Source: Candidatus Hydrogenedentota bacterium (GTDB lineage: Bacteria; Hydrogenedentota; Hydrogenedentia; Hydrogenedentales; CAITNO01). From it: DNA of 37,097 nucleotides. The stretch spans positions 1-37,097 of the forward strand of contig CAIUWO010000251.1 of NCBI GenBank assembly GCA_903902895.1, in the 5' to 3' direction. This document shows, piece by piece, positions 18,639-36,385 of the stretch (position 1 is the first letter of the stretch; the number at the start of each line of letters is the position of its first letter). Position numbers and translations under genes: made by a program. The notes under the pieces were generated by a model. That model had not been told where the DNA came from and ran no database searches. It saw nothing but the letters and a program-made list of their open reading frames with translations.

Positions 18639-18987
18639 CAGGGCAATCGCGTTAAAATCGGCCTTGTTTCAAACCCAGACAACGCACACACGCCCAAGCG
18701 TGGCGCGGTCTTAAGTCCCCCTTCGAAGGGGGACTAATAACATCCTGATGTTTAACACTTTAGCGGACTGGCGCGAAGAGTCTTCTTCTTGCTCTTGCTC
18801 TTAATCCTGCTCTTGCTCCAGTTTGGGATCGTGGAAATATCGAGACTAATGAAAACCCTTCCGGAAAGAGCCTGGTGGAGCTTCCATAGTTCTCACCAAT
18901 TTCGGGCAAGATTAAGAGCAGGAGCAGGAGCAAGAGCAAGAGAGAAGAACCAAGCAGCCCATGCCAATCGGCTAAACGGTTGCCCTG
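18639..18987. repeat. TIR-bounded palindromic element (copy 1)
   Basis: The left boundary is CAGGGCAATCGCGTTAAAAT (from 18639) and the right boundary is the inverted, degenerate CGGTTGCCCTG (18977-18987). Inside are a perfect 22-base palindrome at 18714-18735 (AGTCCCCC, TTCGAA, GGGGGACT) and an inverted array of six-base units at 18781-18949. The same left motif bounds the element at 32536-33002. No coding sequence was recognised inside. It lies in the 540-base gap between the ceramidase-like gene and truA. The status as one unit is inferred from the shared ends. Confidence 0.5.
18781..18949. repeat. Inverted array of hexamer units
   Basis: The left arm (18781-18820) is built of six-base units GCTCTT, GCTCTT, AATCCT, GCTCTT, GCTCCA. 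The right arm (18908-18949) is the inverted counterpart with units AAGATT, AAGAGC, AGGAGC, AGGAGC, AAGAGC. The arms are separated by about 87 bases of ordinary sequence and could form a long imperfect stem. Confidence 0.7.
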
Positions 18988-32535: not shown

Positions 32536-33002
32536 CAGGGCAATCGCATTAAAATCGAAGCCGTGCCGGTGGAGAGGACGGAAGCAGGGTGGTGCAGATT
32601 CTTTTGAAAGGATGCAAGGTCTGTTAGCCCGCTTCAGCGGGCTCCTCTTTGCCCCCGGCTTCAGCCGGGGGGCAGCGAGTCCAATCTTCCCTTGTTAGCG
32701 CGCTTTAGCGTGCTTGACGAAGGCTTGAGCCTTGGATTGAGGACAGGGGCTAAAGCCTGTTGAGAAGCACGCTGAAGCGCGCTGTCCTTGGTGTGTCGCA
32801 TTTTAGACGTCCCCCCGGCTGAAGCCGGGGGCAAAGAGGAGCCCGCCAGAGGCGGACAAGCCGGCTAAAGCCGGCTGAAAAGACATCTGCTTCCCATTGG
32901 GAAGGCCTTCGCTTGCCGCACGGGAGGCGCTGTGTGACGGGACAGCGGCCACTGTTTCTGTCTGTGGTGTCTTCCATATGGCATTCTAATGCGATTGCCC
33001 TG
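32536..33002. repeat. TIR-bounded palindromic element (copy 2)
   Basis: The left end CAGGGCAATCGCATTAAAAT (32536-32555) and right end (32983-33002) are inverted copies matching at 19 of 20 positions; GCATGCC wording lies just outside both. The interior has a perfect 36-base inverted repeat (32637-32672 with 32811-32846) and, nested inside it, a 19-base pair of arms (32697-32715 with 32765-32783, 18 of 19 matched). Each arm is itself made of small palindromes with cores GCTTCAGC, GCTAAAGC or GCTTTAGC. No coding sequence is recognised. It ends 20 bases before the -35 of the rhamnosidase promoter. Confidence 0.65.
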
Positions 33003-33022
33003 CCGGGCATGCCGACGGCGGC

Positions 33023-33051
33023 TTGCCCGATGCGCGGCCGCCCGGTACAAT
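33023..33051 (+). promoter_or_regulatory. Promoter of the rhamnosidase operon
   Basis: TTGCCC (33023-33028), a 17-base spacer and TACAAT (33046-33051) followed by GGCCCGGG. The leader to the ATG is about 70 bases and ends with AGGAA. Confidence 0.6.
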
Positions 33052-33127: not shown

Positions 33128-36100
33128 ATGACCAAGCATTTGTCCCTGTTGGTATTGGCTCTTACGCTTGCCGCCGCGCCGCTGTGGGCGGCGGAGAAGA
33201 CGGGCGCGATTCGCCCGGCCGAGCTGCGCTGCGAATACCGGGCCGACCCCATGGGCATCGACACGCCGCAGCCGCGCTTCACCTGGATCGTGGTGGGCGA
33301 GGGCCAGGCCCGCGGTCTGGCGCAGACGGCCTACCAGTTGGTTGTGTCGGACTCGATGCAGGCCATTCAGAAGAACAAGGGCACGCTGTGGGATTCGGGC
33401 CGGGTGAAATCGGACAACACAGTGCTGGTGAGCTATGCCGGCAAGCCGCTCGCCTCGCGCACGATGTGCTACTGGAAACTGCGCGTGTGGGACCAGGACG
33501 GCCGGCCCTCGGCATGGACCGAGCCGGCCATGTTCTCGATGGGCCTGCTGAAGGCGGAGGACTGGTCCGCCGACTGGATCGGCTATGACGCGCCCGACCC
33601 CGGCGGCCAGGAACCGCGGGAGCCGCTGCTGGGCGCCATGTGGGTATGGCATCCCGAGGGCGACCCCGCGAAGGACGCCCCGGCCGGCAAACGCTGGTTC
33701 CGCAAGGTGGTGGAACTGAACGAGGTTTCCGGCATACGCGAGGCAACGCTCTATGTCACCTGCGACAACAAGGCGCGTGTCAGCATCAACGGCAAGCGCG
33801 TGGCCAAGGGCAAGGACGAGGTTCAGGACCACAGGCAGTTGTATGAGTTTTCGGTGGCCGACCTGCTCAAGCCCGGCCGCAACGTGCTCGCCGTCACGGC
33901 GGAGAACAAAACGGGCGCCGCCGGGCTGATAGCCCGGCTGGAAGTGGTCTTTGCCAACGGCAACGTGGCCGCCGCTGTGACAAACGACGCCTGGAAAGTC
34001 GCCGACAAGGAACCCGACAGCAAATGGAGCAACGAGGACTTTGACGATTCCGGCTGGGCCAACGCCAGAGAAGTGGCGGAGTACGGCGCCGAACCCTGGG
34101 GCAAGGCGGTCTGCAAGCACACCTACCTTCCGCCCGCCCCCTACCTGCGGCACGCTTTTGCCGTGACAAAAAAGGTGCGGCGCGCCACGGCCTATGTGTC
34201 GGCGCTCGGCCTTTACGAACTGCGCCTCAACGGCCGTCGCGTGGGCGACTACCTGTTCACGCCGGGCTGGACGGACTACAAGAAACGGGTCTACTACAAC
34301 AGCTACGACGTGACCGGGCTGCTTCGGGCGGGTGAACCGAACGCTGCGGGCATCATCCTGGCCGACGGCTGGTATGCCGGCCACGTCGGCAACTACGGGC
34401 CGGCGTACTACGGGCAGAACCCGCGCTGCATGGCCCAGATCGAGATTGAGTACGAGGACGGCAAAACGGACCGCATCGTGACCGGCGGCACCTGGAAGGC
34501 GGGCTACGGCGAACTGCGCGAGGCCGACCTGCTCATGGGCGAGTCGCACGACCTGACCAAGTCCATACCGGGCTGGGACGCGCCGGGATTCAACGACAAC
34601 GGCTGGGCACCCGTTGCGCTCACGCCGCGCGCCGAGGTGAAGATTCCCGTGCAGGCCTATCCCGGCGAGCCGGTGCGCCGCTTTGAGACCATCATTGCCC
34701 GCAAGATGGCCGAGCCCAAGCCGGGCGTGTTTGTCTATGACCTCGGTCAGAACATTGTCGGCTGGGCAAAGATTGCGCTGGACGGCAAGGCGGGGCAGAA
34801 GGTCGTGGTGCGCCACGCCGAAATGCTGCAGCAGGACGGCACGCTTTACACCATCGCGCTCCGTTCGGCCCGCGCCACGGACTACTACACGCTGGCGCAG
34901 GACGGCACGGTGACGCTGGAGCCGGGTTTCACCTTCCACGGATTCCGCTATATCGAGATTACCGGCGTGGACACGGCGCCCGCGACGGACGGCGTGCGGG
35001 GCGTGGTGATGCATTCGAATATCCCGCGCACGGCCGAGTTCGAGGCGTCCAACCCGCTGCTCACCAAGCTGGCCGAGAATATTGTCTGGGGCCAGAAGGG
35101 CAACTACTTCGAAGCGCCGACGGACTGCCCGCAGCGCGACGAGCGGCTCGGCTGGACGGGCGACGCCCAGTTCTTCATGCCGACCGCGCTCTACACGGCG
35201 GACATCGGCGCGTTTCACACAAAGTGGCTGGTGGACCTGGTGCAGGACGCGCAGTTGGACGACGGCTCCTTCGCCCATGTCGCGCCCAATGTGAACCAGG
35301 GCGGCGGCGCGGTGGCCTGGGGCGACGCGGCCATCATCTGCCCCTACCTCATGTACCGCTTCTACGGCGACACGCGCGTGCTGGAACAGCACTTCGACCA
35401 CATGGTCAAGGGCATGGACTTCCTCGAGGCGACCAGCAAGGATTACATTCGCGACAAGCTGGGCTTCGGAGACTGGCTCAATCTGGGCGGCGGCGCCAAG
35501 GACGAGGTCATCTGCACGGCCTACTACGCGTACCTTGCGGGGCTCATGTCCGAGATGGCCGGCGTCATCGGCCGCACGGCCGAGCAGGCCAAATACGCCG
35601 ACCTGCACACCAAGGTCCGCGACGCGTTCATCAAGAACTTTGTCGGCCCGGACGGCAAGATTCTTGAGAGCAGCCAGACCGGTTACGCGCTGGCCTTCGC
35701 CTTCGACCTGATTCCCGAGGAATTGAAGAAGGCGGCGGCGGACCGTTTTGTCGAAGAGATAAAGCGCTTCAACGGCCACCTCGCCACGGGCTTCATCGGC
35801 ACGCCGCGACTGCTGCCCGCGCTCACCCTCGCGGGCCGCGAGGATGTGGCCTACAGCCTGCTCATGAACACCACCTTCCCCTCCTGGCTCTATCAGGTCA
35901 CGCTCGGCGCCACCACCATGTGGGAACGCTGGAACGGCTGGACGCCGGAGAAGGGCTTTGCCGATCCCGGCATGAACAGCTTCAACCATTACGCCTTCGG
36001 CGCCGTGGGCGAGTACCTCTACGACCACGTCGCGGGCATCATGCCCGACGGCATCGGCTTCAAGAAGATCATCCTGCGGCCCCGTCCCGGCGGCGGGCTG

Positions 36101-36385
36101 GCTTCAGCCAAACTGTCGTACCGCTCCATCCACGGCGGCATCCTTTCGGACTGGAAGATCGAGAACGGCAAGTTCATGTACAACGTGGAAGTGCCCGCCA
36201 ACACCACCGCCACCGTGTGCCTGCCCTCCGCCGCGCTCGAAACCGCCCGCGCCGACGGCGCGCCGCTGTCGCAGGCAAGCGGCATCACCGCGGCACGCCT
36301 GGAGAACGGCGAGGTCAAGTGCCAGGTCGGCTCCGGCAGGTACACGTTTGAGATTGCCTATACGCCGCCTGCGGCGGGGAAGTGA
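33128..36385 (+). CDS. Secreted alpha-L-rhamnosidase (GH78)
   Basis: Releases terminal alpha-L-rhamnose from plant or bacterial glycans outside the cytoplasm. 1085 residues with a signal peptide (LSLLVLALTLAAAPLWAAE). Order: N-terminal fibronectin-like domain (LRCEYRADPMGIDTPQPRFTW), an inserted carbohydrate-binding-like beta domain (about 170-330), the GH78 concanavalin-like domain (LNGRRVGDYLFTPGWTDYKKRVYYNSYDV), the (alpha/alpha)6 barrel with the signature APTDCPQRDERLGWTGDAQ (acidic motif at about 671-681), and a C-terminal beta-sandwich. Catalytic-motif acidic residues look intact. ATG 33128 has AGGAA eight bases upstream; the frame is open further upstream but without a signal peptide. 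It heads a tight three-gene plus-strand operon. Confidence 0.95.
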   Translation: MTKHLSLLVLALTLAAAPLWAAEKTGAIRPAELRCEYRADPMGIDTPQPRFTWIVVGEGQARGLAQTAYQLVVSDSMQAIQKNKGTLWDSGRVKSDNTVLVSYAGKPLASRTMCYWKLRVWDQDGRPSAWTEPAMFSMGLLKAEDWSADWIGYDAPDPGGQEPREPLLGAMWVWHPEGDPAKDAPAGKRWFRKVVELNEVSGIREATLYVTCDNKARVSINGKRVAKGKDEVQDHRQLYEFSVADLLKPGRNVLAVTAENKTGAAGLIARLEVVFANGNVAAAVTNDAWKVADKEPDSKWSNEDFDDSGWANAREVAEYGAEPWGKAVCKHTYLPPAPYLRHAFAVTKKVRRATAYVSALGLYELRLNGRRVGDYLFTPGWTDYKKRVYYNSYDVTGLLRAGEPNAAGIILADGWYAGHVGNYGPAYYGQNPRCMAQIEIEYEDGKTDRIVTGGTWKAGYGELREADLLMGESHDLTKSIPGWDAPGFNDNGWAPVALTPRAEVKIPVQAYPGEPVRRFETIIARKMAEPKPGVFVYDLGQNIVGWAKIALDGKAGQKVVVRHAEMLQQDGTLYTIALRSARATDYYTLAQDGTVTLEPGFTFHGFRYIEITGVDTAPATDGVRGVVMHSNIPRTAEFEASNPLLTKLAENIVWGQKGNYFEAPTDCPQRDERLGWTGDAQFFMPTALYTADIGAFHTKWLVDLVQDAQLDDGSFAHVAPNVNQGGGAVAWGDAAIICPYLMYRFYGDTRVLEQHFDHMVKGMDFLEATSKDYIRDKLGFGDWLNLGGGAKDEVICTAYYAYLAGLMSEMAGVIGRTAEQAKYADLHTKVRDAFIKNFVGPDGKILESSQTGYALAFAFDLIPEELKKAAADRFVEEIKRFNGHLATGFIGTPRLLPALTLAGREDVAYSLLMNTTFPSWLYQVTLGATTMWERWNGWTPEKGFADPGMNSFNHYAFGAVGEYLYDHVAGIMPDGIGFKKIILRPRPGGGLASAKLSYRSIHGGILSDWKIENGKFMYNVEVPANTTATVCLPSAALETARADGAPLSQASGITAARLENGEVKCQVGSGRYTFEIAYTPPAAGK

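Follow-up and report, generated by a model that had tools for sequence, protein, structure and literature searches.

Insertion sequences (ISs) of the ISAs1 family usually generate target duplications of 8 to 10 bp. The REP, BIME, and REPIN elements that accompany RAYT (TnpA_REP) proteins are dispersed, inverted palindrome pairs with covarying stems, and in REPtrons the gene for a Y1 HUH transposase lies between such repeats. Typical REPs carry the foot GT[AG]G (PMC6006769). Two groups of Y1 transposases described in the same report also bear on the locus presented here. TnpA_Y1 subclass 1.2 has the signature Y---Q--HH, generally lacks the typical terminal IS200 secondary structure, and occurs mostly in Cyanobacteria and Bacteroidetes, and TnpA_Y1 class 3, from Planctomycetes and Acidobacteria, has the foot CnGA and a Y motif that is printed as Y----Q (PMC6006769).

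The locus occupies positions 32536–33002 of contig C251 in the draft genome (7.64 Mb, 1056 contigs) of a Candidatus Hydrogenedentota bacterium. This contig, 37,097 nucleotides in length, is referred to as the window. We consider the locus to be probably a transposon inside a transposon, neither of which carries its own enzyme: an outer MITE with ISAs1-type ends and an inner REPIN-like palindrome. Both kinds of element are known, and it is their stacking that makes the locus new. A REPIN-like palindrome residing within a classical MITE would place HUH single-strand and DDE double-strand chemistries on top of one another in 467 bp.

A repeat search of the window located terminal inverted repeats (TIRs) at 32536–32555 (plus strand, CAGGGCAATCGCATTAAAAT) and 32983–33002 (minus strand) that match at 19 of 20 positions in inverted orientation. 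The same search returned a perfect (100%) inverted repeat of 36 nt (32637–32672 and 32811–32846) and a second inner repeat matching at 18 of 19 positions (32697–32715 and 32765–32783), and thus all three of the repeats listed in the initial annotation of this DNA were recovered. The best 20-mer inverted match among 15 shuffles of the same kilobase ranged from 14 to 17, compared with an observed value of 20 that is itself part of the 36-mer repeat. Folding, a check proposed in the initial annotation, yielded −150.8 kcal/mol for the 467 nt as single-stranded DNA versus −85.1 ± 4.6 kcal/mol for shuffled versions (z = −14.4). The ORF list bears out the annotation's statement that no gene is present inside: 32536–33002 contains no ORF large enough for a transposase, and every ORF of at least 80 aa that overlaps the element enters from the flanks.

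To be a bounded, non-autonomous mobile element, as initially suggested, the locus should not have terminal motifs that occur genome-wide as single, unpaired copies. The TIR core CAGGGCAATCGCATTA, with up to two mismatches allowed, has 38 matches in the source genome and none when reversed as a control. Twenty-four of these matches form 12 inverted pairs with spacings of 223 to 717 bp, and about five of the unpaired matches lie less than 450 bp from a contig end. The motif is thus not confined to single copies, and these results support a bounded, non-autonomous mobile element. Perfect 10-bp target duplications (GTAGCGGGCC, GAACCGTCCC, and TCACGGCAGC) flank three of the 12 pairs, where the chance expectation for each is approximately one in a million, and MITE target duplications of 10 bp are also present in genomes G036 and G007. 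No perfect target duplication flanks the window copy (GCGCATGCCT on one side and CCGGGCATGC on the other), and offset GCATGCC matches were rejected as a candidate for one because they are not adjacent to the element. A second element, at positions 18639–18987 of the window, has the same left TIR (CAGGGCAATCGCGTTA) together with a AGTCCCCCTTCGAAGGGGGACT palindrome; its right end is decayed (CGGTTGCCCTG) and a target duplication was not seen. Most sister MITEs (L025, L028–L030, L035, L037, L039, L047, and L054) bear AGTCCCCCTTTGAAGGGGGA-type palindromes, which constitute another internal module.

Autonomous relatives of the outer element were found in related genomes, and therefore a transposase gene between the same terminal repeats, for which the initial annotation had advised a search, does exist. 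With up to one mismatch allowed, same-order genomes frequently contain the TIR motif and the genomes sampled from outside the order rarely do. A contig scan located the 19-nt end in numerous phyla, and named Hydrogenedentota bins were among the matches. Ends of the CAGGGCAATCGCAYT type bound elements of 1.33 to 1.36 kb that encode ISAs1-family transposases in genomes G035 (1327 bp), G062 (1361 bp), and G026 (1333 bp), and their TIRs are the same or nearly the same. The transposase of these relatives matches NF033564 (E = 1.9e-123) as well as PF13808 and PF01609. Two ISAs1 elements of the order, the one in G026 and a 1591-bp element in G016 that is more distantly related, are flanked by 10-bp duplications, as are the sister MITE copies noted above. 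The first 19 nt of the left TIR are identical to both ends of the ISs in G035 and G062. In contrast to these ISs, the window element is 467 bp in length, lacks a transposase gene, and has an unrelated interior that houses a foreign hairpin module; identity between MITE and IS is limited to the terminal 18 to 19 bases or so. Given its shared TIRs, its short length, and its multiple copies, the outer element (32536–33002) is almost certainly of a known kind, namely a MITE with ISAs1-type ends.

An ISAs1 transposase was not found in the source assembly or in those of its two congeners, all of which are drafts. We therefore regard the window copy as a non-autonomous MITE that would need a transposase supplied in trans, and the enzyme in question would be either unassembled or now lost. 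The former option corresponds to an alternative in which the TIR elements are not an orphaned MITE population and still depend on an ISAs1 element that resides in the strain. The fragmentation of the assembly into 1056 contigs is compatible with this possibility, and contig ends truncate several TIR copies, as is the case for multi-copy ISs in drafts. Nevertheless, we judge a resident element to be somewhat unlikely, given that no piece of the transposase was found in the three congeneric genomes and that perfect duplications are missing at most TIR pairs, which suggests age.

Within the MITE, two four-hairpin arms in inverted orientation span approximately 32624 to 32880. On the plus strand, the left arm comprises H1 (32626–32643; AGCCCGC-TTCA-GCGGGCT with the 5′ foot TTAG), H2 (32652–32671; CCCCCGGC-TTCA-GCCGGGGG), H3 (32697–32715; AGCGCGCTTTAGCGTGCTT), and H4 (32719–32735; GAAGGCTTGAGCCTTGG). 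These are mirrored on the minus strand by H4′ (32745–32760), H3′ (32765–32783), H2′ (32812–32831), and H1′ (32859–32876), and an additional short repeat (32840–32858) lies between H1′ and its CAAAGAGGAGCC spacer. H3 and H3′ correspond to the 18-of-19 repeat described above. H1, H2, H2′, and H1′, which do not appear in the initial annotation, are self-complementary, with TTCA, TGAA, or TAAA loops. The GCCCGCCAGAGGCGGACAAGCC unit in the right arm (32840–32862) matches another dispersed repeat, which is found in tandem on contig C342, singly on C689, C505, and C144, and also in genome G031.

The inner module recurs in the source genome as a unit of about 225 to 235 bp on contigs C435, C850, C774, and C472, and variant or partial modules are present on C475, C793, and C859. 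Additional copies, often as a single arm, occur in six other genomes (G001, G002, G026, G033, G058, and G062). Each arm has the order foot TYAG, H1, spacer CTCCTCTTTGC, H2, H3, H4, and the second arm is its reverse complement, which gives H1-H2-H3-H4/H4′-H3′-H2′-H1′ for the whole palindrome. In the H1 and H2 stems of 21 aligned arms, 99.4% of the cells are paired. Compensatory change affects six of the 15 base pairs, with 27 such cells compared with 7.6 in shuffles (0/500), although relatedness among the arm sequences can inflate compensatory counts. Controls in which the alignment was slid gave two compensatory pairs at most.

This organization, an inverted palindrome pair dispersed in the genome, is that of REP and REPIN elements. 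The differences are that each arm here has four different hairpins (eight per unit), that the source genome contains about 15 matches to the spacer motif and not hundreds, and that 32 of 34 arms have the 5′ foot TYAG and not GT[AG]G. On account of this foot, we classify the module as REPIN-like and not as a typical REP.

A link to Y1 transposases is provided by genome G026, where a Y1_Tnp ORF on contig C25 (locus L282) lies between a left and a right arm of the same type as those in the window, with an extra copy of the H1-H2 hairpins downstream. The 146-aa product belongs to the IS200/IS605 family (NF033573, 58 bits against a cut-off of 55; PF01797, E = 9.9e-16), and the arrangement parallels that of a REPtron and is what a full unit should look like. 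G026 is the only genome in which this repeat was found to flank a Y1 transposase gene; this single full arms-plus-gene unit belongs to another family of the order, and its best relatives elsewhere are mostly 24 to 40% identical. The Y1_Tnp genes fetched from the source genome were rejected as the origin of the inner module, as none has these arms nearby. With its unusual four-hairpin arms and different foot, the module very probably derives from a Y1 system as a REPIN-like element.

The Y motif of the G026 protein, YVANQKEHH, fits the Y---Q--HH signature, and by motif alone the protein would be placed in subclass 1.2. Because members of this subclass are reported to be generally without such terminal structures, the inverted repeats that bracket the genes here, in what is probably another phylum, constitute a difference worth testing. 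Among the 30 Y---Q--HH genes of the order that had adequate flanks, 25 have inverted repeats matching at 17/18 or better on either side of the gene, versus 27 of 870 (3%) mismatched pairs of upstream and downstream flanks. These genes would offer a natural reservoir for testing hairpin and foot recognition by enzymes of the Y---Q--HH type. The G026 unit also resembles class 3 systems in having atypical hairpins around the gene that are dispersed in the genome, but neither the CnGA foot nor the Y----Q motif was seen here. Many Y1 genes of the order, of both Y---Q--HH and Y---NP types, are flanked by gene-specific inverted repeats (L055–L064, L272–L296, and L327–L356).

To the right of the element lies a gene for an alpha-L-rhamnosidase (33128–36385), the orthologue of which is present in both congeners with 83 to 85% identity. 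Homology with the congener DNA resumes at 33018–33021, which is 16 to 19 bp outside the right TIR, and neither genome has the element next to the orthologous gene. However, gene order upstream differs in the congeners, and thus there is no clean empty site for the window copy. An equivalent search for the module on C793 found homology on one side only, stopping before the module. Thus, of the two genome searches recommended in the initial annotation, that for both ends succeeded, with the 12 inverted pairs as its outcome, and that for empty sites produced no clean example. The 850-aa ORF upstream of the element gave no match in a PADLOC scan. A promoter-like sequence (TTGCCC-17-TACAAT, 33023–33051), about 20 bp to the right of the element, is common to the window and both congeners.

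The intergenic position of the palindrome, its stable RNA fold, and its strong compensatory changes could also suit a host regulatory or structural element, such as a bidirectional terminator, an mRNA stabilizer, or a protein-binding site, that is maintained by selection and is not a mobile remnant. REPs and BIMEs are reported to act as protein-binding sites (PMC2817692). We find this explanation improbable because the element is missing beside the orthologous gene in both congeners, the Rfam scan of the window returned zero matches at the gathering threshold, and the same arms enclose a Y1 transposase gene in G026. A host role and an origin as a mobile remnant are nonetheless compatible with each other.

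The initial annotation treated the TIRs and the inner palindromes as one unit that could fold into a single long cruciform. Joint movement as one such MITE is highly improbable despite the fold of the 467 nt, which far exceeds that of shuffles, and the MITE on C472, which contains TIRs and module alike: these TIRs do not accompany the module on C475, C435, C850, C774, C793, and C859 or in several other genomes (C472 being the only source-genome copy outside the window that sits between TIRs), the module is missing from most TIR pairs, its arms surround a different type of transposase in G026, and nothing among the fetched loci is convincingly related to the non-palindromic part of the window copy's interior.

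Our preferred reading is therefore that of a nested locus. In this model, the outer 467-bp MITE would rely for its movement on an ISAs1 DDE transposase that acts in trans and leaves 10-bp target duplications, and the REPIN-like palindrome would be its cargo. The palindrome itself would be a gene-less version of the unit seen in full in G026, where an IS200/IS605-type Y1 gene lies between the same arms, and by analogy the Y1 enzyme may recognize the hairpins as single-stranded DNA. We infer trans action of the enzymes, as well as mobility of either element, now or in the past, through such mechanisms. Most simply, the MITE would have existed first and the inner module would have entered it later. 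More tentatively, and with somewhat less than even confidence, we propose that the Y---Q--HH Y1 genes of the order, each between its own arms, spawned gene-less units that DDE MITEs then picked up. If this is true, a single-strand element can be spread by a double-strand transposition system.

Two comparisons indicate that MITE interiors in the source genome are modular. The MITE on C472 holds the inner module, whereas it is missing from one on C932, which has a perfect duplication and whose outer ends are closely similar. Likewise, MITEs on C214 (L039) and C362 (L045) apparently occupy the same insertion site but have interiors of 305 and 223 bp, respectively, the difference being the segment that two AGTCCCCC palindromes enclose.
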